Source: Gammaproteobacteria bacterium
GTDB taxonomy: Bacteria > Pseudomonadota > Gammaproteobacteria > Chromatiales > Chromatiaceae
Length of the DNA stretch: 64,000 nucleotides
Assembly (NCBI GenBank): GCA_011390365.1
Contig: JAABSM010000006.1
Span: forward strand, 1 to 64,000
Direction of reading: 5' to 3'
A program made the translations under genes and the position numbers. The notes below the pieces were generated by a model that had not been told where the DNA came from, did not search any database, and saw nothing but the letters and a program-made list of their open reading frames with translations. This document shows positions 22,531 to 39,094 of the stretch, piece by piece; the first letter of the stretch is position 1, and every line of letters starts with the position of its first letter.

Positions 22531-23415
22531 ATGAATGCCGCGCACAGTTCAAACGATCTGGTGACCTGGAGCAACGACCTGAGCCTGGGCCTGGATGAGG
22601 TGGACGACCAGCACCTCTATCTGATCGAACGCATCAACAAGCTCTGGCATGCGTTGCTGGAGAATCGCGACCGCGAGGTGGTGCAGGAGATCATCGAGGA
22701 GCTCTACAGCTACACCCAGACCCACTTTATCGCCGAAGAGGTGCTGATGCGCTCCTTCGACTACCCCCGGCTGGCGGAGCACCAGAAGTCCCACCGCATG
22801 TTTACCGACCACATCCGCAAGGCCGCCGACGACTACAGCAACGGCAAGCCGATCAGCATGGAGCTGCTGCACTTTCTCAACGACTGGTTGCAGAAGCACA
22901 TCAAGGTCACCGACCGGGACTACGCCAACTACATCGACCGCAGGAAGCACGGCGCCCTGCTTGGGGGCTTCAAGTCCCTGTTTCGCAAGTTCAACGACAT
23001 GGCGCGCCATGACAGCAGCGACGACGTGGTCGAGGATAGCTTGCAGGGGCTGGACATGAACCATGCGATTCAGGTTCACGTCAACTGGATCAAGCGCTTG
23101 GAGCAGGCGCTGAAGCATGACGAACGCAGCCTGGATGTCAATGAGGTCGCCGACGACGAGCACTGCATGCTGGGCAACTGGATCAGCGCCAACCAGGGCA
23201 AGGGCATCCGGAAACTGGAGGAGTTCAAGCGCCTCATCGACAACCACGCCGCCTTTCACCAATGCGCCGCATCGATCCTGGTCGAATTGCGGGAAGGACG
23301 GCCCCGCGCCGCCAACATGCTGTTGAAGCGGGACCTGCGCCACCTCTCCAACACCATTCGCTTCGATATCATCCAGCTCTACGGGGCCTACCACCGCAAG
23401 CTGGGCAGCGACTGA
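22531..23415 (+). CDS. Bacteriohemerythrin with C-terminal CZB zinc-binding domain
   Basis: A soluble protein of 294 residues (start at 22531 chosen for its GGGAG site; an ATG at 22501 adds ten residues). Residues about 10-130 form a hemerythrin domain binding a di-iron site: VDDQHLYLIERIN, THFIAEE, EHQKSHRMF and HIKVTDRDY supply the His and acidic ligands. After a linker, residues about 180-275 match the chemoreceptor zinc-binding (CZB) domain: HVNWIKRL, HCMLGNWI and the H.AFH helix (NHAAFHQ). It may sense or carry oxygen or NO coupled to zinc or redox sensing. Confidence 0.85.
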   Translation: MNAAHSSNDLVTWSNDLSLGLDEVDDQHLYLIERINKLWHALLENRDREVVQEIIEELYSYTQTHFIAEEVLMRSFDYPRLAEHQKSHRMFTDHIRKAADDYSNGKPISMELLHFLNDWLQKHIKVTDRDYANYIDRRKHGALLGGFKSLFRKFNDMARHDSSDDVVEDSLQGLDMNHAIQVHVNWIKRLEQALKHDERSLDVNEVADDEHCMLGNWISANQGKGIRKLEEFKRLIDNHAAFHQCAASILVELREGRPRAANMLLKRDLRHLSNTIRFDIIQLYGAYHRKLGSD

Positions 23416-23526: not shown

Positions 23527-24579
23527 TCAATCAGCACCTTTCGCGAGTTTCGCGGTTTTCGGAGTTTGATTGGCTGTAGCAGACCGGGCGGTCGCGCCGG
23601 CGGCCCGCGCCTCCTGCAACTGACCGTGACGCCGGGAGACGCTGCGCACCGTCGCCTCGCCCGAGGAGCGAACACGCATGAAGCGCTGAAGCACGTCGAA
23701 CCAGAAGGGGGCGCCAAGGGAGATGGCGAAGGCGCTAATCACGAAACCCACCACCTTGCTCAGCAGCCAGACCAGAAAGGCCAGAAATCCCTCCGCATGG
23801 GGCGGCGGCGAGACCCCGGACCAGCCGATGGGGAGTCCGCGCTGCCCGAGGTTGCCGGTGGCGAAGCGCACCGCCTGATCCAACTCCCGGGCGCTTTGCG
23901 CCAGGCGTTCCACGGCATCGTCGGAGGCCGGCTGCGCGGCCAGCCGCTGTTCGGCGATCAGCTGCATCTTGCCAGCCTGTTCGACCATCCGTGCGCGGGT
24001 CACGGGATCGTCGGCGAGGCCCTTGATGATGGCGATGCTGTCGACGTTGCCGCCCACCACCAGCAGCGCCGCAGCGATCATGGAGATGGTCTGGGTCTTG
24101 CGCTTGTACCAGCCGGAGGCCCGTTCCATGATGGCGTCGTAGTGACCCTCGATCGCCTCGCGCAACTCTGCGCTGCGTTCGCGGGTGTCACGGCGATAGG
24201 CCTTGAGGATCCCTTTCAGGCGACCATTGGGCAACTTGTCCACCGCCGCGGCGAACTCCCCTACCCCGGCGTGGGCGGTTACCAGGTCTTCCACCACCCG
24301 CCCCAGGATCTCGTTGGGCACATGCGAGGGCCGGCCATTCTTGCCGGAACTGAGGGACTGTACCAGGGGGTGATCGTAAAAGGCGTCCAGAAAGCGGTGG
24401 TCGCCCTCCGCCACGCCGCCGAGCAGCTCCTCAAGCACCTGGCGCAGGCGCTTGCTACGCAGGCTCATCAACGCAGAGACCACTTCGACGATCGCCGTCA
24501 CCACCAGTGCAACCACTAGGTAGACGGTGATCAGACCGATCATGATGTCCAGTGTATCGAGCATGGATGTCATCTCCAA
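23527..24579 (-). CDS. Membrane protein of unknown function
   Basis: A 350-residue protein with an N-terminal membrane helix (IMIGLITVYLVVALVVTAIV), a long soluble helical section, a second hydrophobic stretch near residue 170, and two helices near 270-300 (FLAFLVWLLSKVVGFVISAF). The tail of about 45 residues is basic and low in complexity. I do not recognise a family and see no catalytic motif. Neighbours give no functional hint. Confidence 0.6.
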   Translation of the reverse strand: MEMTSMLDTLDIMIGLITVYLVVALVVTAIVEVVSALMSLRSKRLRQVLEELLGGVAEGDHRFLDAFYDHPLVQSLSSGKNGRPSHVPNEILGRVVEDLVTAHAGVGEFAAAVDKLPNGRLKGILKAYRRDTRERSAELREAIEGHYDAIMERASGWYKRKTQTISMIAAALLVVGGNVDSIAIIKGLADDPVTRARMVEQAGKMQLIAEQRLAAQPASDDAVERLAQSARELDQAVRFATGNLGQRGLPIGWSGVSPPPHAEGFLAFLVWLLSKVVGFVISAFAISLGAPFWFDVLQRFMRVRSSGEATVRSVSRRHGQLQEARAAGATARSATANQTPKTAKLAKGAD

Positions 24580-24700: not shown

Positions 24701-24919
24701 TCGCATGGCCTTCGCGGGCGAAATTTTACCAGAAAACCCTCCTGGCTACCCCCCGGCGCTCCACCCCTCTCTGATGTTGGTTACTGGCATTCGGCGATTG
24801 AGTTCTTTATGATGGTCGTTAACCATTGCCCCCCGCCGGGTTCCTACCCCGCGGTTTCAGCTTGCGAGGTCGGGGCAGGACAAAGGCCTCGCCCCCTAAA
24901 GAAACGGCAGGAGCAGACT

Positions 24920-26146
24920 ATGACTGACAACAATCCCGACAAAGGTTACGTGGCCATCCTCGGCTGGAGCCTCAACGCCATCGACGCCATCGACCGTTTC
25001 GACCGACGCTACATCATCGTCGCCCCGGAGTGGGCCGAAGAGTACGCCCGCGAAAACGACATCCCGTTCATCTCCTGGAACTTCGAGCGTATCAACGACC
25101 GCTCCTTCGAGATCGCCCAGCGCCTCAAGGACGAAGGGGTGGACGTCGCCGTACCCCTGTTCGAGGAGACGGTGGAGTGGGCCGGGGCGATCAACTCGGT
25201 GCTGCTCGACAATCCGCGGCTGATGGGCCAGGCGCTGCTGTTTCGCGACAAGGCGCTGATGAAGCGCCGCGCCCAGCTCGGCGGCATTCGCGTGGGCATC
25301 TTCGAGGAGGCCCACGACAAGTCCGACGTGATCCACTTTCTGCGCCGGGTCAACCAGGCCCTGCTCAAGCTCGACGGCGATCCCAACGACCCGATCCACC
25401 TCAAGGCCTTCGACAAGGCGGGCTGCCTCGGCCACCGCGTGGTGCGCACCGCGGACGACGTGGATAACATCCCCGACGAGGAGTTTCCGGCGCTGATGGA
25501 GAGCCATCTGGACGGCTGGGAGTTCGCCGTGGAGGCCTTCATCAAGGATCGCAAGATCCAGTTCCTGAATATCTCCGAGTACGTCACCCTCGGCTACTCG
25601 GTGTTCGTCCCCGCCACCCCGGACCTTGAAAAGTGGCGACCCCGGGTCACCGAAGAGATCGAAAAGCTGATCGAGACCTTCGACATCGACTTCGGCTTCA
25701 TCCACCCGGAATACTTCGTTACCAATGACGGCAAGATGTACTTCGGCGAGGTGGCCTATCGCCCGCCCGGCTTCCAGGCCTTCGAGCTGATCGAGCGCGC
25801 CTACGGCTTCAACGCCTACCAGGCGATGGTGATGATGTTCGACCCCAAGACCACCCAGCAGGAGATGGACGCCTTCTTTCCCAAACCGGTGGCGGATGCC
25901 AAGGGCCATGCCGGCTGTTTCGGGGTCTACCCCAAGCGCCGCGTGATCAGCGAACTGGCGATCCCCGACGAGACCGAGAACCACCCCTACTTCGAGTTTC
26001 ACGAACTGCCCTCGCCGATGGAAAACAAGGTCCCCAAGCGCACCGCCTTCGGCACCCACTGGGGGTTGCTGCACTTCTTCGGCGACGATCCCTACCAGTT
26101 GCGCGACCTGCTGAAGAAGCAGGAAGAGCTGGATTTCTACGTATAG
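24920..26146 (+). CDS. ATP-grasp fold ligase, unknown substrate
   Basis: A 408-residue cytoplasmic protein of the ATP-grasp superfamily, which joins a carboxylate to an amine or thiol through an acyl-phosphate. An N-terminal Rossmann-like pre-domain (GYVAILGWSLNAIDAI) is followed by nucleotide-binding strands: PIHLKAFDKAGCLGHRVV near residue 160, ESHLDGWEFAVEAFI, and the metal-binding block IHPEYFVTNDGKMYFGEVAY followed by RPPG. It most resembles the carbamoyl-phosphate-synthase/PurK-like carboxylate-amine ligases. ATG at 24920 follows a 'caggagca' site. The next gene starts 14 bases after its stop, so the two are almost certainly co-transcribed. Confidence 0.85.
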   Translation: MTDNNPDKGYVAILGWSLNAIDAIDRFDRRYIIVAPEWAEEYARENDIPFISWNFERINDRSFEIAQRLKDEGVDVAVPLFEETVEWAGAINSVLLDNPRLMGQALLFRDKALMKRRAQLGGIRVGIFEEAHDKSDVIHFLRRVNQALLKLDGDPNDPIHLKAFDKAGCLGHRVVRTADDVDNIPDEEFPALMESHLDGWEFAVEAFIKDRKIQFLNISEYVTLGYSVFVPATPDLEKWRPRVTEEIEKLIETFDIDFGFIHPEYFVTNDGKMYFGEVAYRPPGFQAFELIERAYGFNAYQAMVMMFDPKTTQQEMDAFFPKPVADAKGHAGCFGVYPKRRVISELAIPDETENHPYFEFHELPSPMENKVPKRTAFGTHWGLLHFFGDDPYQLRDLLKKQEELDFYV

Positions 26147-26160
26147 CTTAGGGTTCGCTC

Positions 26161-28149
26161 ATGCATGCCGTAACCGCTCCCGGGGATATCGATCCCCTCG
26201 AAGAGAAGCTGACCCACGCCCTGCACGCCCTGGAACAGGCGCGCCCCTTCGCCAAGATGCGCCATCAGGGCGCGCTGCTGGATCTATCGGCACGCCTGCT
26301 GCAAAGAGAGGGGGGCCTGGAGCGTTTGCATGCCCTGGCCACGCGCATGGATCGCGCCGGCCTCTTCGCGGGTACCGACTGGGACACCCCCGCGGCGCTG
26401 CTGCCGGGGCTGGTGCGCCACACCCTGGAACAGGGGGCGAAACAGACGGTGGTGCTGGAGATCCTCAGCCAATTGCGCATGCTTGCCCTCGCCAAGGGCG
26501 AGGCCGAACACCCCAACCTCACCGCGCAACAGGCGCGCCACTTTCTGACCCAGGTGCTGGCCCTCAACCTGGCGCGGATCTTCGCCGCCGCCAGCGAGGC
26601 GGAGCGGGTGCGGCTGGGCGGCATGGCCCCGGTGGTCGACCATCTGTTCCACTTCCTGCTCGATGAGATCGGTTACCAGCAGATCCTCGGCAATCTGATC
26701 GAGGAGGTCTGGCGCATCCTCGCCCAGCGGCCGATCCAGCTCGATCACGTCAAATCGATGATCACCCAGATCTCGATTGTCATGAGTCAGGGCGGCGTCG
26801 ACCTGGGGGAGAACCGGCTGGGCGCGGACCGCCTGGTCAGCGCCCTGTTCGGCCCCACCCAGGGCTGTCTCGACGATCCCGGGCTGGCGGCCTACCGGCA
26901 ACGCCTGGATGCCATGGATCGGACCTCGCTGCAACAGGAGGCCTATGGTTTCGCCCGCGCCATGCACGACACCGGCCTGGTCTCCGACTATCATGCGGTG
27001 CTGGTACGCTGGTTGCTGGGTAACGAGCAAGGCGAACTGCTGCCCGATGCCCTGGGCCTGAGCAGCACCGGCGTCGATGTCCTGCGCAGCTACCAGCAAC
27101 TGGTGCATCACCTGATCGAGGAGGCGATCCATCCGCGCACCGCCCAGACCCTGTATGGCCTGGCGATGATGCTGGAACGCTGCATCCTCTACGCGCCCCC
27201 CATCGCCCCGGCGCTGTGGCGACAACTCGCCCTGCGCGTATCCGCCAACACCGGGACGCTGCTGGGCAACACCCTGGGGCGGGATCTCGCCCCGGAACAA
27301 CAGCTGCTGGCCGGCGTCATCTCGCTGCTGGGCCTGCCGCTGGGGGTGGGCCAGGGCAACAACCCCACCTGCCAGGCCGCGCGCGCCCTCTCGATGTGGT
27401 CCTACAACGACCCGGACTACCTGCTCCACATCATCGCCCATGCAGCCCGCTTCGACGGCCTGGTGATGCACTTCGAGGGCGCACCGCTGCACTCGGCGCG
27501 GCTGCTCGCCGCCCACCCCAGTCCGAGCGTGCTGGATACGGACCCCGTCTCGATCCTGCTGGTCCCCCACCTGGACGCGATCTACAACGAAATGGGACGC
27601 CTCTGCGCCCATCGCGGCGAAGACCCCCACCGCTGGATCAACCCGGAGTTCCACGGCTGGTGGGTCGGCCGCGCCTTCGTCATCGCCGTCGACGTCGCCA
27701 GCGGCAAGCTGATCAACTTCGACGCCTTCCTGCGCCAGTTCTACGCCAGCTACCACCCCTACTACAACGGCAACCAACCCCTCATCCACCCCCAACCCGC
27801 CGGCATCGCCGTCACCGACAGCCGCGCCCAGTTCGTCGGCTGGCACGCCATCACCATCATCCGCGTCGCCCTCGATCAGGAGAATGTCATGCGGGTATAC
27901 TTCTTCAACCCCAACAACGACAGCGGCCAGGATTGGGGCAACGGCGTCGTCGTCTCCACCCAGGGCCAAGGCGAACGCTACGGCGAATCCTCCCTCCCCT
28001 TCGAGCAACTCGCCTCAAGACTCTACATTTTCCACGACGACCCAACGGAAGAGCTGGATGAATTCGACGTGCCCGGCGAGGAGATTCAGCGTGCGCGGGA
28101 GCTGGCCGTTAACAGCTGGGCGGTGAATCGGTTGTCGCCGAAAAGCTGA
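26161..28149 (+). CDS. Uncharacterised 662-residue protein with papain-like catalytic pattern
   Basis: Partner gene of the ATP-grasp ligase. Residues 1 to about 390 are helical and unfamiliar. The C-terminal about 260 residues carry a pattern typical of cysteine peptidase or transglutaminase folds. Gln398 lies six residues before Cys404 (GQGNNPTCQAARALSMW), the papain oxyanion-Gln to Cys spacing. His562 follows a GW (FVGWHAITIIRV), and an Asn/Asp-rich strand follows (YFFNPNNDSGQDWG, Asn583 to Asp587). No signal peptide. The catalytic reading is inference from spacing; I know no named family with this architecture. A strong hairpin lies 30 bases downstream. Confidence 0.65.
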   Translation: MHAVTAPGDIDPLEEKLTHALHALEQARPFAKMRHQGALLDLSARLLQREGGLERLHALATRMDRAGLFAGTDWDTPAALLPGLVRHTLEQGAKQTVVLEILSQLRMLALAKGEAEHPNLTAQQARHFLTQVLALNLARIFAAASEAERVRLGGMAPVVDHLFHFLLDEIGYQQILGNLIEEVWRILAQRPIQLDHVKSMITQISIVMSQGGVDLGENRLGADRLVSALFGPTQGCLDDPGLAAYRQRLDAMDRTSLQQEAYGFARAMHDTGLVSDYHAVLVRWLLGNEQGELLPDALGLSSTGVDVLRSYQQLVHHLIEEAIHPRTAQTLYGLAMMLERCILYAPPIAPALWRQLALRVSANTGTLLGNTLGRDLAPEQQLLAGVISLLGLPLGVGQGNNPTCQAARALSMWSYNDPDYLLHIIAHAARFDGLVMHFEGAPLHSARLLAAHPSPSVLDTDPVSILLVPHLDAIYNEMGRLCAHRGEDPHRWINPEFHGWWVGRAFVIAVDVASGKLINFDAFLRQFYASYHPYYNGNQPLIHPQPAGIAVTDSRAQFVGWHAITIIRVALDQENVMRVYFFNPNNDSGQDWGNGVVVSTQGQGERYGESSLPFEQLASRLYIFHDDPTEELDEFDVPGEEIQRARELAVNSWAVNRLSPKS

Positions 28150-28948: not shown

Positions 28949-30127
28949 CCCCTCCGCCATCTGCCCCTTCATCTCCTTGGCCGCCAACGCATACCCGCCA
29001 TTGGCGGCATCGAGAAAGTGAACGTGATCGTTGACATAGTCCGAGACCACGCAGGTGATCAACGCGGTGGGGGCGGCGTGGATACCGTATACGATACGCC
29101 CCTCCCTGCGCCACCCTTCCAGCGCCTCGCGCAGTCGACCCCGTTGCTCGGGGGCGCCGGCGATGACCATGCGCAGCACCTCGTCGAGCTTGCGATAGTC
29201 GCTGTTGGCGATGAGGCGGGCCTTGTAGCCGCCCCAGTCGGTCCGATCGGTGCGCACACCGCGTTTCATCATGTAATCGCCCAGGGAGACCAGCACGCGG
29301 GTCTTGAGCATCCACCAGATGCGTTGCGGCATGTTGCCGAAGGCGGTGCGGATCATCGCCTCGGCGGCGACGCCGCGCATGGACTTGGCCAGCCTCAATC
29401 CCTCTTCCCGTAACGGGTGGTACTCCGCCTCGTCGCCATAGATCTCGCCGATTTTGGCGAGGATTTCGTCATGGAGTCGGTCCCGCGCCGCTTCGTCCGG
29501 TTCGGTCACCTGTACCAGCAGGGCGATGGTTTCGCCGTGGGGGCTGGGGATCTCGTTCCAGCGGCACTCGAAGCCTTCGAAACAGTTTTCCTGCGCGCCT
29601 TCCTTTTCATCGATCAGCCAGGGATTGTCTGGGGCGGGCTCCTTCACCAGCTTCTCCGCCTGGCTGAGACCGCCGCCAAGGAACATCGCCTGCCCGAACC
29701 AGGGATGGGGCTGGTACTTGGCCACCAGCACCCGAAAGCCGGCCCGCTCCACTTGCGAGACCGGCACTAGACCGGCCCGCAGCTCCAGACCGAACTCCGC
29801 CCGCGACAAGGCCCGCGCCGCACGCATCGCCTCCTTGGCCTGCTCCAGGGCGCTCGGCGGTAGGCAGGCAGTAGCGCCGTCGCCGCCGAAGACATAGGGG
29901 ATCTCCAGCGGACGCACCTTGTTGAGCAGGGCGACGATGGAGGCGACGCCGATGGCGTTGACCTGGCGATACTTGCCGTCCTGAATCGCCGCCGTCGACC
30001 CCTTCACGTCACTGATCGCCACCCACCAGTCGCTGGGCAAGGGGCGATAGCGGTCCTGATGGGCGACATCGGCGAAGGATGGCAAGCCTGGCAGGTCGTG
30101 GTAGAAGTTGTCGCTTTGGTTGTTCAT
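28946..30127 (-). CDS. DUF3095 family protein, nucleotide-cyclase-like
   Basis: A 393-residue cytoplasmic protein that I recognise as DUF3095. The N-terminal part looks like a class III nucleotide cyclase or GGDEF-type fold: VAISDVKGSTAAI would hold the first metal-binding Asp and YVFGGDGATACLP the second. No cyclase activity is known to me for this family, so function is open. It is downstream of, and on the same strand as, the transglutaminase gene, separated by about 290 bases of palindromes, so co-transcription is doubtful. Confidence 0.75.
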   Translation of the reverse strand: MNNQSDNFYHDLPGLPSFADVAHQDRYRPLPSDWWVAISDVKGSTAAIQDGKYRQVNAIGVASIVALLNKVRPLEIPYVFGGDGATACLPPSALEQAKEAMRAARALSRAEFGLELRAGLVPVSQVERAGFRVLVAKYQPHPWFGQAMFLGGGLSQAEKLVKEPAPDNPWLIDEKEGAQENCFEGFECRWNEIPSPHGETIALLVQVTEPDEAARDRLHDEILAKIGEIYGDEAEYHPLREEGLRLAKSMRGVAAEAMIRTAFGNMPQRIWWMLKTRVLVSLGDYMMKRGVRTDRTDWGGYKARLIANSDYRKLDEVLRMVIAGAPEQRGRLREALEGWRREGRIVYGIHAAPTALITCVVSDYVNDHVHFLDAANGGYALAAKEMKGQMAEG

Positions 30128-30420: not shown

Positions 30421-33400
30421 TCAACCACTCCGCCGCAGATCCAGGGTATAGGGATACTCGGGATTGCGCTCCGCCGGTCCGGGTTCGCCGATCTCCGCCT
30501 TGCCGGTCGCTTCCGTATAGCCAAAGCTCCAGAAGCGGGAGATGCGCCGGGCTTCGGCCTCGTAGGCGTTGACCGGGGCGGTGTCGTAGCTGAGGCCGCC
30601 GGGGTGGGCTACGTGGTAGGTGCAGCCGGCGATGGCGCGTTGGTTCCATTGGTCGACCAGCTCCAGGCGCAGCGGGGCGTGACTGGGGATGGTGGGGTGG
30701 AGGGCGGAGGGGGGTTGCCAGGCGCGAAAACGGATGCCGGCGACGTATTCGCCGTGGGTGCCGGTGGGTTTGAGGGGGACGCGGCGACCGTTGCAGGTGA
30801 GCAGGTGGCGGGAGTCGGTGAGGCCGGTGAGCTTGACTTGCAGGCGTTCCACCGAGGAGTCGACGTAGCGGGCGGTGCCCATGCCGCTGACCTCTTCGCC
30901 CAGCACATGCCAGGGCTCGATGGCCTGACGCAGTTCGAGGGTGATGTCGCGGCTCTCCAGGGTGCCGTAGTGGGGGAAGCGGAATTCGTGGAAGGGGGCG
31001 AGCCAGTCCTGGGCGAAGGGGATGCCGTGATCCGTCAGTTCGTCGACGACGTCCTCCAGGTCCCGTCGCACGTAGTGGGGCAACAACCAGCGGTCGTGGA
31101 GCTCGGTGCCCCAGCGCACCAGCGGCTTCTTGTAGGGCTGGTCCCAGAAGCGGGTGATGAGGGCGCGCAGCAGCAGGTTCTGCACCAGTGACATGCGGGC
31201 GTGGGGCGGCATCTCGAAGGCGCGTAGTTCGAGGATGCCGAGGCGACCGCTGGCGGAGTCGGGGGAGTAGAGCTTGTCGATACAGAACTCGGCGCGGTGG
31301 GTGTTGCCGGTGATGTCCACCAGCAGGTTGCGCAGTAGCCGGTCCACCAGCCAGGGGTTGGGGGTCTCGCCGTCGGGCATCAGCCGGAAGGCGGTCTCCA
31401 GTTCATACAGGATCTCGTCGCGCCCCTCGTCGACGCGCGGGGCCTGGCTGGTGGGGCCGATGAACAGGCCGGAGAAGAGGTAGGAGAGCCCGGGGTGGTG
31501 CTGCCAGTAGGTGACCAGGCTGCGCAGCAGGTCGGGGCGACGCAGGATGGGGCTGTCGGCGGGGGTGGGGCCGCCGATGGTGATGTGGTTGCCGCCGCCG
31601 GTGCCGGTGTGGCGACCGTCGATGAGGAACTTCTCGGTGCCCAGCCGCGCCAGACGGGCCTCTTGGTAGAGGGCCTGGGTGTTGTTGACCAGCTCCTGCC
31701 AGGAGTGGGCGGGGTGGATGTTGACCTCGATCACGCCCGGATCAGGGGTCACCAGCAGCCGGTTGAGGCGCGGATCATGGGGGGGCTCGTAGCCCTCCAG
31801 CAGCACCGGGGTTTGCAGCTCGGCGGCCACCGCCTCCACCGCGGCGACCAGATCCAGGTAGTGCTCCAGGTGGGTGAGGGGCGGCAGAAAGACCCGCAGC
31901 CGGCCCTCCCGCGCCTCCAGGCAGAGGGCGGTACGCACCACCGCGCCCATCTCCCCTCGCTGGTCGGCCCCCTCTTCGTCCGCGAAGCGCTGATCGCGGA
32001 TCTTCTGGGGCCGCGGGGCGGTGTCGGCGACGAAGTGGTCAAAGTGACGCGCCACCTCACCCACCGAGTCGCCCAGTTGCGGCCGGGGTTCGAACAGGTC
32101 GGGGGGCTGGGGCTGGCGCTTTTCGCTATCCTTTTCCCAGTGCAGGGCATCCAGCGGCAGGCGGTAGCCCATCGGCGAATCCCCCGGCAGCAGGTAGAGT
32201 CGCTCGCGCCGCAAGCGCCAGGGGCCGGTGACCCAGCCGTCGTCGCGGTAGCCCCATACCAGCGGCAGGACGTAACCGACGATCTTCTCCAGGCCCTGTT
32301 CGAAGACCCGGCGCAGACGCTCCCGCTCCAGTTTATCGGTAAGCTTGCTGTCGAGGGGGTCGACGTTGTCCGGCAGCATCCCTTCTCGCCACAGGTAGTA
32401 GAAGACATCCTCGTAGCCGGCGCGCAATGTGTCGTCCTGAACCGCCAGGCGACGGGCCAGGGCGCGACCGAAGGCGAGCGCCTGCGCGGCGTCGGCGCCA
32501 TAGTCCCGCGCCTCATCGGCGACCCAGCGGTCGTCGCGCCACACCGGCTTGCCGTCGCGCCGCCAGAAGCAGCCGTAGGCCCAGCGCGGCAGTTGTTCGC
32601 CGGGATACCACTTGCCCTGGCCATAGTGACGCACCGCACCGGGGGCGAAGCGGTTCTTGACCCGCGCCAGCAGATCGAAGGCCCGTTCCTGTTTGTGCCT
32701 GCCCAGCGCCTGGGTGTTCCATTGCGGATCATCCATGTCGTCGATGGAGACGAAGGTGGGTTCGCCGCCCATGGTGAGGCGCACGTCCCGCTCCTTGAGT
32801 TTGCCGTCGAGTTCCCGCCCCAGTTGCTGGATTGCGGCCCACTGGTCGTCGGAATAGGGCTTGGTAACCCGCGGGTCTTCGTGAATGCGCCGGACCTGGT
32901 TGGCGAAATCGAACGCCACCTCGACCCTTTCACCCACATAGCCGCCGGTGACCGGCGCGGCGCTGACCGGATCGGGGGTGCCGGCCAGGGGAATGTGGCC
33001 TTCGCCGGCGAACAGCCCGGAGGTGGGGTCGAGGCCGATCCAGCCCGCGCCGGGTACGTAGACCTCGGCCCAGGCATGGAGGTCGGTGAAGTCCTCCTCC
33101 GGGCCGCTAGGGCCGTCGAGGGCCTTCTCATCCGCGGTCAACTGCACCAGATAGCCGGAGACGAAGCGTGCCGCCAGTCCCAGGTGGCGGAGGATCTGCA
33201 CCAGCAACCAGGCGGTGTCGCGGCAGGATCCGGAGCGTTTCTCCAGGGTTTCGTCGCAGCCCTGAATGCCGGGTTCCATGCGGATGGTGTAGCGTATCTT
33301 GCGCCACAGTTCCTGATTGAGGTGAACCAGGAAGTCGACGATCTTCTGCTCGCCGCGATCGATGGTGGTGAGCAGTGCCATCAGGCGATCGCCAAATTCG

Positions 33401-33762
33401 GTGACTTCCAGGTAGGGACTCAGCTCCTTGCGAAGTTGCTTGTCGTAGGCGAAGGGGAAGTTGTCGGCATAGGCCTCGACGAAGAAATCGAAGGGGTTGA
33501 TCACCGTGGTCTCGGCGATCACCGTCACCTTCACCGACATCTCCCGGGTCGGCTCCAGAAACACCACCCGTGCCAGCCAATTGCCGAAGGGGTCCTGCTG
33601 CCAGTTGATGAAGTGCTTGGCCGGCTGGATGTCCAGGGCGTAGTGGAGGATCGGCGTACGCGAATGCACCGCCGGGCGCAGGCGGAAGATATGGGGGGTA
33701 AGCTCCACCGATCGGGGATAGCGGTAGGAGGTATGATGATCGATGGCGACGCGGATGGTCAT
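30421..33762 (-). CDS. Transglutaminase-like protein with DUF2126 domain
   Basis: A 1113-residue cytoplasmic protein. Residues about 1-300 are an N-terminal beta domain plus a transglutaminase/cysteine-peptidase core with a full triad: Cys180 in GSCRDTAWLL, His229 in DLHAWAEVY and Asp245 in GLDPTSG. Residues about 320-1113 form the large DUF2126 region (for example MGGEPTFVSIDDMDDPQWN and TGTGGGNHITIGGPTPADSP) typical of this family. The family was predicted (Iyer and colleagues, 2009) to act with Anbu, alpha-E and permuted ATP-grasp proteins in peptide synthesis or tagging. Here it lies downstream of the Anbu-like gene on the same strand. Confidence 0.9.
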   Translation of the reverse strand: MTIRVAIDHHTSYRYPRSVELTPHIFRLRPAVHSRTPILHYALDIQPAKHFINWQQDPFGNWLARVVFLEPTREMSVKVTVIAETTVINPFDFFVEAYADNFPFAYDKQLRKELSPYLEVTEFGDRLMALLTTIDRGEQKIVDFLVHLNQELWRKIRYTIRMEPGIQGCDETLEKRSGSCRDTAWLLVQILRHLGLAARFVSGYLVQLTADEKALDGPSGPEEDFTDLHAWAEVYVPGAGWIGLDPTSGLFAGEGHIPLAGTPDPVSAAPVTGGYVGERVEVAFDFANQVRRIHEDPRVTKPYSDDQWAAIQQLGRELDGKLKERDVRLTMGGEPTFVSIDDMDDPQWNTQALGRHKQERAFDLLARVKNRFAPGAVRHYGQGKWYPGEQLPRWAYGCFWRRDGKPVWRDDRWVADEARDYGADAAQALAFGRALARRLAVQDDTLRAGYEDVFYYLWREGMLPDNVDPLDSKLTDKLERERLRRVFEQGLEKIVGYVLPLVWGYRDDGWVTGPWRLRRERLYLLPGDSPMGYRLPLDALHWEKDSEKRQPQPPDLFEPRPQLGDSVGEVARHFDHFVADTAPRPQKIRDQRFADEEGADQRGEMGAVVRTALCLEAREGRLRVFLPPLTHLEHYLDLVAAVEAVAAELQTPVLLEGYEPPHDPRLNRLLVTPDPGVIEVNIHPAHSWQELVNNTQALYQEARLARLGTEKFLIDGRHTGTGGGNHITIGGPTPADSPILRRPDLLRSLVTYWQHHPGLSYLFSGLFIGPTSQAPRVDEGRDEILYELETAFRLMPDGETPNPWLVDRLLRNLLVDITGNTHRAEFCIDKLYSPDSASGRLGILELRAFEMPPHARMSLVQNLLLRALITRFWDQPYKKPLVRWGTELHDRWLLPHYVRRDLEDVVDELTDHGIPFAQDWLAPFHEFRFPHYGTLESRDITLELRQAIEPWHVLGEEVSGMGTARYVDSSVERLQVKLTGLTDSRHLLTCNGRRVPLKPTGTHGEYVAGIRFRAWQPPSALHPTIPSHAPLRLELVDQWNQRAIAGCTYHVAHPGGLSYDTAPVNAYEAEARRISRFWSFGYTEATGKAEIGEPGPAERNPEYPYTLDLRRSG

Positions 33763-33802
33763 GGTTCCTTATTTCTCCGGAACGGGGGGCTATCAGAGTG
33801 AG

Positions 33803-34000
33803 GAAATGGACAGGATTAACAGGATTTCTCAGGATTTACATGATTTATAACGGCGAACCTCGTCAGGTACGTTAAACATGGCGACTCAACTCAGGCGATT
33901 GACTGCGGCATAGATAACCTCGGGCCGGCTAAAGCCTCGACCTCCGACTACGTTTTCACAACAAAAAATCCTGTCAATCCTGAGAAATCCTGTCTATGAA
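33803..34000. repeat. Intergenic repeat module ('aggattaacaggat' and 'ccggctaaagcc')
   Basis: Left part 33810-33838 contains ACAGGATTAACAGGATTT; right part 33968-33995 is a near complement (AATCCTGTCAATCCTGAG). Between them lies CGGGCCGGCTAAAGCCTCGA at 33921-33940, shared with a second module at 45144-45366. The space separates the transglutaminase start from the end of the Anbu-like gene. Confidence 0.7.
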
Positions 34001-34019
34001 TTTTTCTTGAACCGATCCC

Positions 34020-34871
34020 TCACTCCAACTGCCGACTCCAGACATGCTCGGAGAGTTCCTGGGGCTGGGAGGCGGCGGCTTCGGACTCCTTGGGCGGTTG
34101 CGCGACACCGGTTTCGCGCGGCGCTGGCGCCGCGACCGCGCCTTCCCAGGGGAAACGCGGCAGACCGCCAAAGGCCTGGCGCAGGCCTTCGTTCCATTGC
34201 TGCTTGATGGCGTTGTAGAGGCTGTCCTCTTCGCTCAGCTTCATGTAATTGGAGACCCGGAACTCGCCCTTGCGCAGGATGCACAGTTCCACCGGTGGCC
34301 CGACGGTGATGTTGGAGCGGATGGTGGAGTCGATGGAGACCAGCGCGGCGCGGGAGGCGTCCTCCAGGGTGGTGACCGGGGTGATCACGCGGTCGAGGAT
34401 GGGTTTGCCATATTTGGTCTCGCCGATCTGCAGGAACGGGTTGTCGTCGGACGGACTGATACAGTTACCCTGGGCGTAGACCAGATAGATGTCCGGATCC
34501 TGGCCACTGATCTCGCCACCGATGATGAAATAGGACTCGCCGTTGATACCGCTCTTCTGCAACGCCGATTCATGACGTCCCTGTACCACCTGACTGGTCT
34601 GGCCGAGGTAGCTGGCGGCGTTGTAGAGGGAATCCGCGGTACGCAGACTGAAGACCGCGTTGGGGTCTTCGAGATCTCGTCGCAACTGCTGAATCACCCC
34701 CTGGCTGGTGGAGAGATTGCCGGAGGTGATGATGACGAAGGCGCGGCCTGAGTCGACCTCGAAGCGAAACATCTTGCTGTAGGTGTTGACATAGTCCACC
34801 CCTGCGTTGGTGCGGGAGTCGGAGGCGAACACCAGCCCGTCGTTCACCTTGATACTGAGGCAATAGGTCAT
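34020..34871 (-). CDS. Anbu-type proteasome-like peptidase
   Basis: A 283-residue protein of the Anbu/bacterial proteasome homologue family, an Ntn-hydrolase related to HslV and the proteasome beta subunit. The start MTYCLSIKVNDGLVFASDSR with TNAG is the family signature; after removal of Met the N-terminal Thr could be the nucleophile. Other features are FVIITSGNLSTSQGV, YFIIGGEISGQDPDIYLVY and a Pro/Ala-rich C-terminal tail (about 40 residues). The ATG at 34871 is the family start; a longer frame to 34931 adds 20 unrelated residues. Divergent from the permuted ATP-grasp gene. Confidence 0.92.
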   Translation of the reverse strand: MTYCLSIKVNDGLVFASDSRTNAGVDYVNTYSKMFRFEVDSGRAFVIITSGNLSTSQGVIQQLRRDLEDPNAVFSLRTADSLYNAASYLGQTSQVVQGRHESALQKSGINGESYFIIGGEISGQDPDIYLVYAQGNCISPSDDNPFLQIGETKYGKPILDRVITPVTTLEDASRAALVSIDSTIRSNITVGPPVELCILRKGEFRVSNYMKLSEEDSLYNAIKQQWNEGLRQAFGGLPRFPWEGAVAAPAPRETGVAQPPKESEAAASQPQELSEHVWSRQLE

Positions 34872-35149
34872 GGGATGCGTCTTCAAGCCAAGTGGAAGCG
34901 GGTCGCCTCCGAAACAGAATCCGTCACGCACTGGGACGGCGCCGGGAAATCATGTTCGCACATTTTATCCCGCAAGTCTCTCATTGCGAAACGTTTCGAT
35001 TCAGGCTATTTTGCGCTCTCGGAAGGTGCGTAATTCACCCCGACGCACCAGCGGAAGGCGCGGCTGACGGCATGCCTTGCACATTTCGCTTGCGACCGTT
35101 TGCATTGTGACGCCTGGCCCCGATTTTGCTAGACGATCACGAACATGAT

Positions 35150-36613
35150 ATGGCGGACCCCCCTGTGGCTATCGACTGGAAAGAGTACACCCACCACGAC
35201 TTCTTCGATGAACTGGTCGCCAGCGGCGCACCCCGACGCGCCGCCGAAAAGGTCTGCGGCTATCTGTCCGGGCTGGAGGATGGCGAGCTGGAGGACCTGC
35301 GCAACGCGGCGGAGCTGGCGATCAAGGCGATGGGCATCACCTTCACCGTCTACACCGAGGCCGAAGGCTCCATCGATCGCGCCTGGCCCTTCGACCTGAT
35401 CCCGCGCATCATCGAGCGTAACGAGTGGCGGCGCATCGAGGCGGGCCTCAAGCAGCGGGTACGCGCCCTCAACCTGTTTATCGACGACATCTACCACGAT
35501 CAGAAGATCGTCAAGGATGGGGTCTTTCCCGGCGAACTGCTCGCCGATTCGGTAAATTTTCGGCCCGAGTGCGTCGGCATCGATCCGCCGTTTGGGGTCT
35601 GGGCGCACATCTGCGGCTCGGACCTGGTGCGCGACGCCGACGGCACGGTTTACGTGCTGGAAGACAACCTGCGCGTCCCCTCCGGCGTCTCCTACATGCT
35701 GGAAAACCGCATGGTGATGAAGCGGGTCGCGCCGGAGCTGTTCGAGGAGAACACCATCCTGCCGGTGGACGCCTACCCTACCCAGCTCTATGAGACGCTG
35801 GCCGCCCTGTCGCCACGGCCCGGCGACTTCCCCGAGGTGGTGGTGCTGACACCCGGCATCTACAACTCCGCCTATTTCGAGCACGCCTATCTGGCCCAGC
35901 AGATGGGGGCGGAACTGGTGGAGGGGAGCGATCTGGTCGTGGGTGAGGACGATTGCGTCTACATGCGCACCATTTACGGGTTGTCCCGGGTCGACGTGAT
36001 CTACCGTCGCATCGACGACCTGTTCATGGACCCGGAGGTGTTCCACCCGGACTCGGCGCTCGGCGTGCCCGGTCTGATGCGCGCCTGGAAGGCGGGCAAT
36101 GTAGCCCTGGCCAACGCCCCTGGCGCGGGAGTGGCGGACGACAAGGTGGTCTACGCCTATGTGCCGGATGCCATCAAGTACTACCTGGATGAGGATCCGA
36201 TCCTGCCCAACGTCCCCACCTATCGCTGCCTGTATGACCAGGAGCGAGAGCATGTGCTGACCAACCTTGACCAGCTGGTGGTCAAACCCGCGAACGAATC
36301 CGGCGGCTACGGCATGCTCATCGGCCCCCAGGCGGAAGAGGCGGAGCTGGCCAAGTTCGCGGAACTGATCAAACAGGACCCGCGCAACTACATCGCCCAG
36401 CCGATGCTCAAGCTCTCCACCGTGCCGACCCTGACGGATCACCACGCCGCGGCCCGCCACGTCGACCTGCGCCCCTTCATTCTTTCGAGCAAGCACGTCC
36501 ACGTCACCACCGGCGGCCTCACCCGGGTCGCGCTACGCCCTGGGTCCACCGTGGTCAACAGCTCCCAGGGGGGAGGCAGCAAGGATACCTGGATCGTCGA
36601 TCTCGACGACTGA
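35150..36613 (+). CDS. Circularly permuted ATP-grasp protein (DUF404/DUF407)
   Basis: A 487-residue member of the circularly permuted ATP-grasp type 2 family, predicted amide ligases. Recognisable segments are NGAPR-like ASGAPRRAAEKV, RPECVGIDPPFGVWAHICGS, TVYVLEDNLRVPSGVSYMLE, VVLTPGIYNSAYFEHAYLAQ, VVKPANESGGYGMLIGP and DLRPFILSSKH. I choose ATG at 35150 (MADPPVAIDW); a TTG frame from 35126 adds eight residues and neither has a good ribosome site. It is followed 22 bases later by the alpha-E gene, the standard pair. About 278 bases separate it from the divergent Anbu-like gene; these must hold both promoters. Confidence 0.92.
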   Translation: MADPPVAIDWKEYTHHDFFDELVASGAPRRAAEKVCGYLSGLEDGELEDLRNAAELAIKAMGITFTVYTEAEGSIDRAWPFDLIPRIIERNEWRRIEAGLKQRVRALNLFIDDIYHDQKIVKDGVFPGELLADSVNFRPECVGIDPPFGVWAHICGSDLVRDADGTVYVLEDNLRVPSGVSYMLENRMVMKRVAPELFEENTILPVDAYPTQLYETLAALSPRPGDFPEVVVLTPGIYNSAYFEHAYLAQQMGAELVEGSDLVVGEDDCVYMRTIYGLSRVDVIYRRIDDLFMDPEVFHPDSALGVPGLMRAWKAGNVALANAPGAGVADDKVVYAYVPDAIKYYLDEDPILPNVPTYRCLYDQEREHVLTNLDQLVVKPANESGGYGMLIGPQAEEAELAKFAELIKQDPRNYIAQPMLKLSTVPTLTDHHAAARHVDLRPFILSSKHVHVTTGGLTRVALRPGSTVVNSSQGGGSKDTWIVDLDD

Positions 36614-36635
36614 TCGATAGCGAGGATATTGCCCC

Positions 36636-37592
36636 ATGCTTTCACGCGTCGCCGAACACATCTACTGGCTGGCCCGCTATGCCGAACGGGCGGAGAACAC
36701 CGCGCGCCTGATCAACGTCAACACCCATCTGCAACTGGACCTGCCCAAGCACCTGCGTCCCGGCTGGAAACCCTTGATCACCATCACCGGCTGCGAGGAT
36801 CCCTTCTTGCGACGCGCGATGGAGGCCAATGAGAAGAACGTGGTGCGCTTCCTGATCGGCGACTTCGAGAACCCCAGCTCCATCATCCAATCCCTCAAGT
36901 GGGCGCGAGAGAATGGCCGCACGGTGCGCGATTTCTTCCCGCGCGACGGCTGGGAGCAGATCAACAACCTCTACCGCATCGCCTCCGCCGAGATCTACCT
37001 GGGCATCTCGCCTCGCGGTCGCTACAACTACCTCAAGCAGGTCATCCTCGGCGTGCAGGCCCTCTCCGGGATGCTCTCCGGTACCATGAGCCACGACGAA
37101 GGCTACACCTTCCTGCTGCTGGGGCGCTATCTGGAACGGGCCGACATGACCACCCGCATCGTCGACGTGCTCTCCACCCACCTGGAAGAGCAGAGCGGCG
37201 ACATCGAGTACTACGAAGGGGCGTTGTGGATGAACCTGCTCGAATCCCTCAGCGGTTACCAGATGTACCGGCGGGTGATGCAGCAGGCGCCGGACTGGGA
37301 TCCGGTGATCAGCTTCCTTTTTCGTAATCGGGAATTCCCCCGCTCCTTCCGCTACTGCCTGGGCGAGCTGGCTGGGGCGGTGGCGCCGCTGCGCAACAAC
37401 GAACGGGTGAAGGAGCGGATTGAGCGCCTCGAAGAGCTGATCGGCGAATTCGATCCGGATCGGGTTAGTGGAAGCGACCTGCACCAGCTCATCGACGACC
37501 TGCAACGCATGCTGGGGGAGATTCACAACGAGATCGGCATCGCCTGGTTCAACTATCCGTTGCCCGAAGAGTCCCAGCGCCAGGCCAGTTGA
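36636..37592 (+). CDS. Alpha-E domain protein
   Basis: A 318-residue all-helical protein of the alpha-E family (DUF403). The start MLSRVAEHIYWLARYAERAE is diagnostic; further markers are GYTFLLLGRYLERADMTTRI and SYCLGEL-like FRYCLGELAGAV. The conserved Glu residues in the helices give the family its name. No enzymatic function is established; it is nearly always next to a permuted ATP-grasp gene, as here (22 bases), and the two may form a complex. A GAGGAT site precedes the ATG. Confidence 0.93.
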   Translation: MLSRVAEHIYWLARYAERAENTARLINVNTHLQLDLPKHLRPGWKPLITITGCEDPFLRRAMEANEKNVVRFLIGDFENPSSIIQSLKWARENGRTVRDFFPRDGWEQINNLYRIASAEIYLGISPRGRYNYLKQVILGVQALSGMLSGTMSHDEGYTFLLLGRYLERADMTTRIVDVLSTHLEEQSGDIEYYEGALWMNLLESLSGYQMYRRVMQQAPDWDPVISFLFRNREFPRSFRYCLGELAGAVAPLRNNERVKERIERLEELIGEFDPDRVSGSDLHQLIDDLQRMLGEIHNEIGIAWFNYPLPEESQRQAS

Positions 37593-37648
37593 ACACCAGC
37601 GCCCCGGGGCGGGACAGACGCGTCCATTCGTGGTAGTTTTCCCGTCCC

Positions 37649-39094
37649 ATGCCACACGTCAAACATCCCGCCTACCTTGCAGGGCTGGTCCTGCTGATGC
37701 TCGCCGCCGCGCGCATCCTGCTGGTCCAGACCCACGATCCACTGTTCGCCTACGCCAACAACTACGATCAGGTGCGCACCATGTCGGCGCTGGGACTCTC
37801 CCCCGCCGATGAGCGCTACCGCTTCGGGGAAGGTACCCACGCCCACCCGCTGCGTTATTTCGATATTGATCGTGAAGAGAAATGGATCTACCTCTCCAGC
37901 GCCATCGCGCTGGATTACCTGCTGCTCCGGGGAAGAGATCGACTGAGCGACAACCCCGCTGAACCCCGGCGAGTCGACATTCGTGTCAAGGGCGCCTTTT
38001 TCGCGGCCCTGTGGATCCTGATCCTGCTGATCTACCATTTTCGGCTGGCGCGATCCCGGCAGGGCGTCGCGCTGCTCTATGCCTTGGTCGGCCTGCTCAT
38101 CGCCGATCCCTTCTACAGCCTCTATCTCAACACCCTCTACATGGAGCCCGCGACATTCATCGGCCTGCTGTGGTTCGCCTCATCCGTGCTACTGGCGATC
38201 ATCGAACAACGCATTCCCCGCCGACGGATAGCGGCATGGGGCCTGCTGCTGCTTGCCATCGCCCTCTCCCGCAATCAGTATCAATATCTTTTCCTGGCGC
38301 TGATCCCGATCCTGGCGGGGGTCGCGCCGCCCTGGCGCAAGCGCTTCGGCCTTGCGTTGGTTATCGGCCTGGTCGCGACCATCGGCACCCAGCGCATCTT
38401 CTACCTGACCAACCCCGACGCCACCAACACCCTGAACGACATCAAGAACACGAACACGATCAATACTTTTTTTGGCGCGGTACTGCCGGCTCTTTCCGAT
38501 CCCGCGCGGACACTGGACACCTTCGGCCTAGAGCCTGAATGTATCAGGTTCAGCGGGGATAACTGGTACATCGGCGACCTCCAGGCGATCTTCGAGCAGT
38601 GCCCCGCCATCCTATCCCTGTCCCTCGCCGACATGGGGTTGATGAGCGTTCAGGATCCCGCCGCAATCGCAACCATGATCCGAAATGCAGCCCTGTATTC
38701 CCAAGAGCTGTACCATCGCGCCCTCGGTCAGGTAGCGCACGAGTCCAAGATCTTCATCCTTGAGGCGGGCGGTGTTCCTTACCTCGGTATCGCGGATATT
38801 ATCGCGAACATGGATTCCCGGCGGTGGCTCGGTCTCGTGTTCTTCACCCTCTTCTCCCCTTGGCTGGCGGCCCTGCTGGCCTGGACGCGCGGCGCTACTG
38901 AACAGGCCGCATGGCCGACCTTTCTTGGGGCGATGCTGGGATACTCCTTCTTTTCGTCATTGTATGGCGATGGCTACATTGACTTTCCCCGTCACGCCTT
39001 TCTCTTCTACGGCCTGGCTCTCGCCTGGTTCGCCACCTTCGCCTACGGATTGCTCACGACCCTAAGCCCCCGCGAGCAGTTGCGTCGCCGCTAA
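37649..39094 (+). CDS. Polytopic membrane protein, possible GT-C-type
   Basis: A 481-residue protein with about nine membrane segments and large loops, for example between residues 25-110 (ANNYDQVRTM region) and 255-370. The layout recalls GT-C fold glycosyltransferases, which carry an acidic motif in the first external loop, but I cannot identify a family and no D-x-D is evident. It begins 56 bases after the alpha-E gene; a functional link is unproven. Confidence 0.6.
   Translation: MPHVKHPAYLAGLVLLMLAAARILLVQTHDPLFAYANNYDQVRTMSALGLSPADERYRFGEGTHAHPLRYFDIDREEKWIYLSSAIALDYLLLRGRDRLSDNPAEPRRVDIRVKGAFFAALWILILLIYHFRLARSRQGVALLYALVGLLIADPFYSLYLNTLYMEPATFIGLLWFASSVLLAIIEQRIPRRRIAAWGLLLLAIALSRNQYQYLFLALIPILAGVAPPWRKRFGLALVIGLVATIGTQRIFYLTNPDATNTLNDIKNTNTINTFFGAVLPALSDPARTLDTFGLEPECIRFSGDNWYIGDLQAIFEQCPAILSLSLADMGLMSVQDPAAIATMIRNAALYSQELYHRALGQVAHESKIFILEAGGVPYLGIADIIANMDSRRWLGLVFFTLFSPWLAALLAWTRGATEQAAWPTFLGAMLGYSFFSSLYGDGYIDFPRHAFLFYGLALAWFATFAYGLLTTLSPREQLRRR

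Follow-up and report, generated by a model that had tools for sequence, protein, structure and literature searches.

Introduction

Glutathionylspermidine synthetase/amidase (GspSA) combines an ATP-grasp ligase with a papain-like amidase that works on the same amide, and in the butirosin pathway the ATP-grasp ligase BtrJ is paired with the papain-fold enzyme BtrH. Here we describe an ATP-grasp ligase gene that is followed by the gene of a 662-residue, predicted papain-like protein in a 64,000-nucleotide stretch of a gammaproteobacterial genome of the Chromatiaceae (assembly GCA_011390365.1, contig JAABSM010000006.1, positions 1 to 64,000; hereafter the window). For this two-gene unit, GspSA is probably the best-known parallel, and BtrJ/BtrH may be regarded as a parallel of the transferase type. 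The likeness to GspSA lies in a ligase and an amidase of these types that serve one small amide within one unit; unlike the window pair, however, GspSA is a fusion of a CHAP-family and a GSP_synth-family enzyme, and Pfam searches found neither domain in either protein of the pair. The likeness to butirosin biosynthesis lies in the presence of both enzyme types in one pathway. BtrH is presented as a papain-fold acyltransferase in the accessible portions of PMC10318531 and PMC2922099. It differs from the 662-residue protein in its use of an acyl carrier protein, and the conserved cysteine of BtrH_N proteins lies, as judged by eye, in an HC motif and not in a Q-x5-C motif.

The pair described here is an ATP-grasp plus papain-like module with an unmodelled family and an unexpected genomic association: a large, predicted papain-like family is tied to a probable amide ligase and, among the genomes sampled, to holders of the ectoine synthase EctC. 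Should the link to ectoine prove functional, it would offer a testable way towards a metabolite of salt adaptation. The initial annotation of this DNA knew of no described system with such a pair, and a literature search by title and abstract start found none either; an earlier mention is possible. The pair is likewise not described in the accessible portions of PMC10318531, PMC2922099 and PMC5924519. The second of these reports a papain-like family, presented there as novel, from clusters with methionyl-tRNA-synthetase paralogues, which may or may not be the family of the 662-residue protein.

The two genes form a recurrent unit

A scan of genome contigs returned at least 566 stretches that encode the papain-like family, and the counts over 80 loci given below refer to the best 80 of these. 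The ATP-grasp gene adjoins the papain-like gene in 77 of the 80 loci. In 76 it lies upstream on the same strand (69 intact, one with an internal stop, three split and three cut by a contig edge), and in one the arrangement is divergent. The three remaining loci (L018, L025 and L088) have their ATP-grasp gene outside the examined stretch and elsewhere in the same genome; in the L018 genome it stands beside a second papain-like copy, and in L025 both genes are at contig ends. In 70 related loci of the same gene order, the two genes are separated by an estimated 67 bases in the median (range -14 to 499). Among 369 genomes of the class, the 13 that encode the papain-like protein are the same 13 that encode an ATP-grasp protein of 73-100% identity; in 17 further genomes the ATP-grasp matches were all weak, at 23-38% identity. 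In G288, one of these 13, about 55 kb separate the two genes. Pairwise distances in one protein correlate with those in the other (r 0.90 over 81 loci), a value for which the species tree was not controlled. These data establish the pair as a real, recurrent unit. They also bear out the initial annotation, which had proposed a two-gene unit of plus-strand genes 14 bases apart and had named co-occurrence with the ATP-grasp gene as a check; its coordinates, strands and lengths, including the 662 residues, are correct.

Extra copies are found in some pair genomes (G171, G279 and G365). G365, which has the pair as well, carries a second ATP-grasp copy, 74% identical, at G365:C1:2421783-2423003 (L134), and no papain-like gene lies within about 9 kb of it. 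In L024, L041, L054 and L090 the ATP-grasp genes are split or carry an in-frame stop, which may reflect either real decay or an assembly error.

By record title, the papain-like family extends over gamma- and alphaproteobacterial genera, a metagenome-assembled genome (MAG) of the Desulfobacteraceae and actinobacteria. Holders include Halomonas and its relatives, Marinobacter, Microbulbifer, Thiomicrorhabdus, Halorhodospira, Rhodobacteraceae and Pararhizobium, and further Hoyosella, Lolliginicoccus, Nocardia and Actinophytocola, among others. The papain-like protein was also present in 11 of 398 genomes sampled across the phylum. Phage records gave no match, none of 74 pattern matches in viral contigs was a relative, and plasmid records yielded a single match, on a 1.8-Mb Halomonas replicon without usable annotation.

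The 662-residue protein carries a predicted papain-type site

To our A1 alignment we admitted 69 sequences that are 55-64% identical to the 662-residue protein. Twelve residues are invariant in all 69 (Q398, G399, C404, H562, A563, N583, P584, N585, D587, Q590, W592 and G593), and C404 is the sole invariant cysteine. In the window protein these residues fall into the segments Q398-G-N-N-P-T-C404-Q, G560-W561-H562-A563 and N583-P-N-N-D587, and D587 is the only one of the twelve that is not retained throughout a set of 40 more distant catalytic regions, with identities down to 50%. Papain has Q19-x5-C25, H159, N175 and W181-G182; the 662-residue protein has the same Q-x5-C, followed after 158 residues by the histidine, after 21 by the asparagine and after a further 9 by the tryptophan. 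A tight pattern that describes this arrangement, QG-x4-C-x(80-250)-G-x-HA-x(8-35)-N-x(2-9)-WG, matched 147 of the 3,901 open frames with a minimum length of 200 residues, namely 142 family members (redundant loci included), five of seven C1 protease loci and nothing else. Q398, C404, H562 and N583 are therefore predicted to be papain-type catalytic residues in papain-like order and spacing.

The protein thus shares with peptidase C1 the elements QG-x4-C, G-x-H-A, N and W-G in the same order and at similar spacing. It differs in a long N-terminal region where C1 proteins have a propeptide, and in the sequence NPNND as opposed to NS in the C1 proteins compared. The window's genome itself holds two C1 papain-family genes (G000:C97:4111-4725 and G000:C113:10859-11434); any match of this kind was found in only 6 of 80 genomes searched.

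At the level of described families, neither Pfam nor NCBIfam matches the 662-residue protein. Pfam searches with the 69 members at E up to 5 returned weak and scattered matches to 12 families (best E 0.011, the commonest in 8 members); peptidase C1 (PF00112) is absent from these 12 and does not match the window protein. Transglutaminase (PF01841) does not match it either, in a scan that finds PF01841 in the window's 1113-residue protein. By sequence comparison, we thus appear to deal with a large, putatively papain-like family that is new to the Pfam and NCBIfam copies used and has no PDB match. The residues pointed out in the initial annotation, Q398-x5-C404, H562 after GW and an Asn/Asp-rich strand at 583-587, are present as numbered, and the alignment it asked for shows Q398, C404 and H562 conserved throughout. 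Of the papain or transglutaminase enzymes to which it likened the protein, papain is the one that the pattern resembles, and the transglutaminase model gives no match. The roughly 390 residues of unknown sequence that it placed before the catalytic part indeed match no family; residues 41-380, however, are a conserved region in their own right, with 30 of 340 positions invariant in A1.

The partner is probably an L-amino-acid-ligase-type ATP-grasp enzyme

The 408-residue ATP-grasp protein matches PF13535 (ATP-grasp_4) below the Pfam cut-off (E 5.5e-4, 20 bits versus 27). A 53-row profile (A2), whose members are 74-87% identical to the window copy, gave weak PDB matches to 4dim (E 0.0009), 3vot (E 0.0033) and 4wd3 (E 0.0067), of which the last two are L-amino acid ligases. 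The motifs H262-x-E264 and E277-x-A279-x-R281 are present, and H262, E264, E277 and R281 are invariant in all 53 rows and align with 3vot and 4wd3; we take their counterparts in relatives to be metal-binding residues. In a comparison with L-amino acid ligases of the BL00235 and RizA type, the likeness thus consists of the aligned H-x-E and E-x-[AG]-x-R motifs and a weak profile match. The differences are the score below the Pfam cut-off, the near-obligate papain-like partner and the LAL_C domain, which Pfam did not find in the 408-residue protein; RimK gave no Pfam match to it either. The protein is a probable amide-bond-forming ATP-grasp enzyme of the L-amino-acid-ligase type. It is the more conserved partner, as a comparison of the identities in A2 with those in A1 shows.

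The pair co-occurs with ectoine synthase

EctC (PF06339) was found above the cut-off in 53 of the 369 class genomes and in all 13 pair genomes. The hypergeometric probability of this overlap is 2.8e-12 with genomes taken as independent; since the 13 pair genomes come from 10 families and are not independent, contrasts within families matter. In the family of the window's genome (f1), that genome has both the pair and EctC, and both are missing from G141, G254 and G350. Family f3 shows the same contrast between G160, with both, and G002, with neither. The holder of both in f148 is G260; G148, which we presume to be among the 369, lacks the ATP-grasp gene and is not among the EctC matches. Hence the pair and EctC vary together within f1 and f3, and probably within f148. 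In the order of G380, the ATP-grasp gene occurs in 3 of 61 genomes, all three among the 16 with EctC; G380 had been chosen as a pair holder, and leaving it out gives two of two ATP-grasp holders with EctC.

The pair is not located in an ect cluster, and the sole adjacent intact ectC is that of G260, where the papain-like gene, an HDAC-like gene, the ATP-grasp gene and ectC follow one another on one strand in a single run. The encoded EctC passes the NCBI cut-off for ectoine synthase. In the Desulfobacteraceae MAG, the ATP-grasp gene is preceded, at about 70 bases, by a remnant of the 3' end of ectC (L016:8552-8647). In L029, a gene for the ectoine hydroxylase EctD, above the cut-off, follows about 0.45 kb downstream of the unit on the opposite strand, and in L052 the distance from the pair to an ectC match is about 10 kb. 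According to PMC5924519, the role of EctC proteins whose genes stand outside ect clusters is unresolved.

An HDAC-like deacetylase is a recurrent neighbour in some lineages

In the search for a third gene, we clustered frames of at least 90 residues from 22 sequence groups at 60% coverage. Besides the pair itself, three clusters span at least four groups, namely a family of ABC-transporter ATPases and two sets of shadow frames, and two span three groups, an HDAC and an aldehyde dehydrogenase (all protein families named by eye). The aldehyde dehydrogenase, which also stands beside the ATP-grasp gene in L125, was judged to be there by chance without a test.

An HDAC-like deacetylase gene is adjacent to pair genes in G181, G260, G347, L040 and G544, in differing gene orders, and lies 2.2 kb upstream with one frame between in L020. 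The five of these six proteins that were scanned match PF00850 with E 7e-85 to 9e-96, the closest solved chains of the G347 copy are HDAC6 and bacterial HDAH, and the partners are 44-69% identical to one another (12 comparisons). HDAC matches in L039, L049, L052 and L074 were left out as partners because of their low identity (32-40% to three query HDACs) and their distance of about 1.5-9 kb.

L126:9025-14841 and L129:9279-13868 come from two genomes of one genus; these genomes have three papain-like copies, of which one without an ATP-grasp neighbour has a GCS2-type ligase and an AstE/AspA-like deacylase close by. A third genome of that genus (L207) has an ATP-grasp-less copy with neither gene in the examined stretch, and we therefore treat the neighbourhood as a single lineage event and not as a general theme.

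A possible role in osmoadaptation

We propose that the pair is an osmoadaptation-linked two-enzyme module in which the ATP-grasp enzyme forms an amide and the papain-like enzyme cleaves or transfers it, a reading to which we assign a probability of about 0.45. As judged from its family, the ATP-grasp enzyme would activate a small carboxylate with ATP and join it to an amine, giving an amide or dipeptide-like compound. The residue pattern of the papain-like enzyme suggests a Cys404-His562-Asn583 site, with Gln398 as the oxyanion residue, that would attack such an amide and either hydrolyze it or pass the acyl group to another amine. The choice of substrate would fall to the N-terminal region of about 340 residues, and in some lineages the HDAC-like zinc deacetylase would strip N-acetyl groups from substrates of this kind. 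Both proteins would be cytosolic. In the cell, the module would most likely serve osmoadaptation by producing or modifying an amide-type solute, or else an intermediate close to the diaminobutyrate/ectoine pathway. Diamino acids or acetylated diamino compounds are the substrates suggested by the association with ectoine genes and the deacetylase. The initial annotation had seen a ligase/hydrolase pair that builds and trims, or adds and removes, a peptide-like modification. This is partly supported by the recurrence of the pair, the invariant predicted catalytic residues and the alignment of ATP-grasp residues with the metal site of amide ligases.

Several observations weigh against the proposed module. 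On the side of the enzyme, profile searches of the PDB with the full protein and with its catalytic region gave no match at E up to 10. The papain pattern was written after both groups had been seen, and the C1 loci had been obtained as PF00112 matches; a looser version (Q-x5-C and no Gly before HA) gave 151 matches, which comprise the 142 family members, all seven C1 loci and two unrelated frames. An hhalign comparison of the catalytic region with five C1 sequences aligned exactly the H562 to W592-G593 segment with the His/Asn/WG segment of C1 (P 0.057) and omitted the Cys segment, and the match is weak by itself because 18 of 400 column-shuffled controls scored equally high. On the side of the genomic context, no general neighbour besides the ATP-grasp gene emerged from the clustering over 22 groups, and HDAC-like matches were found in the examined stretch of 6 of 80 loci, only two of them of the close subfamily. 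EctC occurs without the pair in 40 of the 53 EctC genomes, and in family f171 G272 has EctC and lacks the pair. Only two of 80 loci have an ectC match (the remnant and the one about 10 kb away) and one has EctD. The ectC gene of the window's own genome lies on a different contig, beside frames taken for ectA and ectB from inspection by eye and from similarity. The G260 run comes from a draft genome, on a contig of 5.6 kb, and its EctC shares 90-91% identity with those of G171 and G279, which lie behind ectA- and ectB-like genes in ordinary ect clusters; the protein therefore looks ordinary, and its place is unusual if the contig is right.

A shared saline habitat may also explain the co-occurrence with ectoine. 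The pair would then be unrelated to ectoine, serving for instance dipeptide turnover, and would merely share saline niches with ectoine producers, as the many loci among the 80 from halophilic or marine genera and the EctC genomes without the pair would suggest. The direct adjacency in G260 and the remnant just upstream of the ATP-grasp gene in the MAG argue against such a habitat marker, as do Nocardia and Actinophytocola, which hold the pair and are not typical halophiles (EctC was searched in neither); we consider this explanation unlikely. We judge similarly doubtful an acyl relay, in which the ATP-grasp enzyme makes an acyl donor and a papain-like transferase akin to BtrH or phytochelatin synthase moves the acyl group to the final acceptor. 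Two successive steps of one pathway would suit the near-obligate pairing, and papain-fold transferases exist, as the available portions of PMC10318531 and PMC2922099 indicate. However, no general carrier-protein neighbour was found among frames of at least 90 residues, a threshold at which a small carrier could be missed. BtrH_N (PF14399) has no Pfam match to the 662-residue protein and no convincing one among the 69 members, and hhalign against six BtrH_N proteins, C39_2 and an ATP-grasp control gave no overlap at the catalytic residues.

Tagging of a protein by the ATP-grasp enzyme, with the papain-like enzyme trimming or removing the added amino acids, would come near to what the initial annotation proposed and appears improbable. 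RimK and the tubulin ligases are protein-modifying ATP-grasp enzymes, a signal peptide was seen by eye in neither protein, and no third gene accompanies the pair generally, all of which would fit. Yet the weak ATP-grasp matches are to ATP-grasp_4, PurD-like proteins and ligases of free L-amino acids, and not to RimK, and the neighbour clustering found no conserved gene for a possible target protein. The context of ectoine synthase holders and HDAC-like deacetylases points more to small-molecule chemistry than to protein tagging. Within the proposed module, a more specific version would be a new branch of the ectoine pathway: the ATP-grasp enzyme would condense 2,4-diaminobutyrate, N-acetyl-diaminobutyrate or ectoine with an amino acid, and the papain-like enzyme, joined in some lineages by the HDAC-like deacetylase, would process the amide to a compatible solute of a new class or a salt-regulated store. 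We regard this version as rather unlikely.

Locus layout and flanking genes

The coordinates of the unit and of its surroundings are collected below. The longest ATP-grasp frame opens at 24809; we set the start at 24920 because homologues align from there.

Table 1. Features of the two-gene unit and its surroundings, in positions of the window.
Feature	Positions	Strand	Remarks
Bacteriohemerythrin/CZB protein	22531-23412	+	Flank
350-residue protein	23530-24579	-	Precedes the ATP-grasp gene and points away from it; no convincing Pfam or NCBIfam match
ATP-grasp ligase gene	24920-26146	+	408 residues; start set by homologue alignment
Gap between the two genes	26147-26160	+	14 bases; ATP-grasp stop codon ends at 26146
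Papain-like protein gene	26161-28149	+	662 residues; ATG at 26161
N-terminal region, residues 41-380	26281-27300	+	30 invariant positions
Predicted papain-like catalytic region, residues ~381-640	27301-28080	+	Invariance, pattern search, weak hhalign match
Q398 codon	27352-27354	+	
C404 codon	27370-27372	+	
H562 codon	27844-27846	+	
N583 codon	27907-27909	+	
W592-G593 codons	27934-27939	+	
DUF3095 protein	28949-30127	-	Flank
Transglutaminase-DUF2126 fusion	30424-33762	-	Pfam
Proteasome-like subunit	34023-34931	-	Pfam
Circularly permuted ATP-grasp	35147-36610	+	Pfam
Alpha-E	36636-37589	+	Pfam
481-residue protein	37649-39091	+	No Pfam match at E 1e-5

A clustering of neighbours found no relatives of the three flanking genes beside the 80 loci, and a PADLOC search for anti-phage defence at E up to 1 matched neither protein of the pair. 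A second amide-ligase/peptidase neighbourhood lies 2-11 kb downstream of the pair (window 30421-39094). Clusters of Anbu and circularly permuted ATP-grasp proteins, like the pair, combine an amide ligase with a peptidase; they differ from it in their ATP-grasp families and in a proteasome-type peptidase, and have no family match in common with it. It is the downstream neighbourhood that we take to resemble the Anbu clusters.

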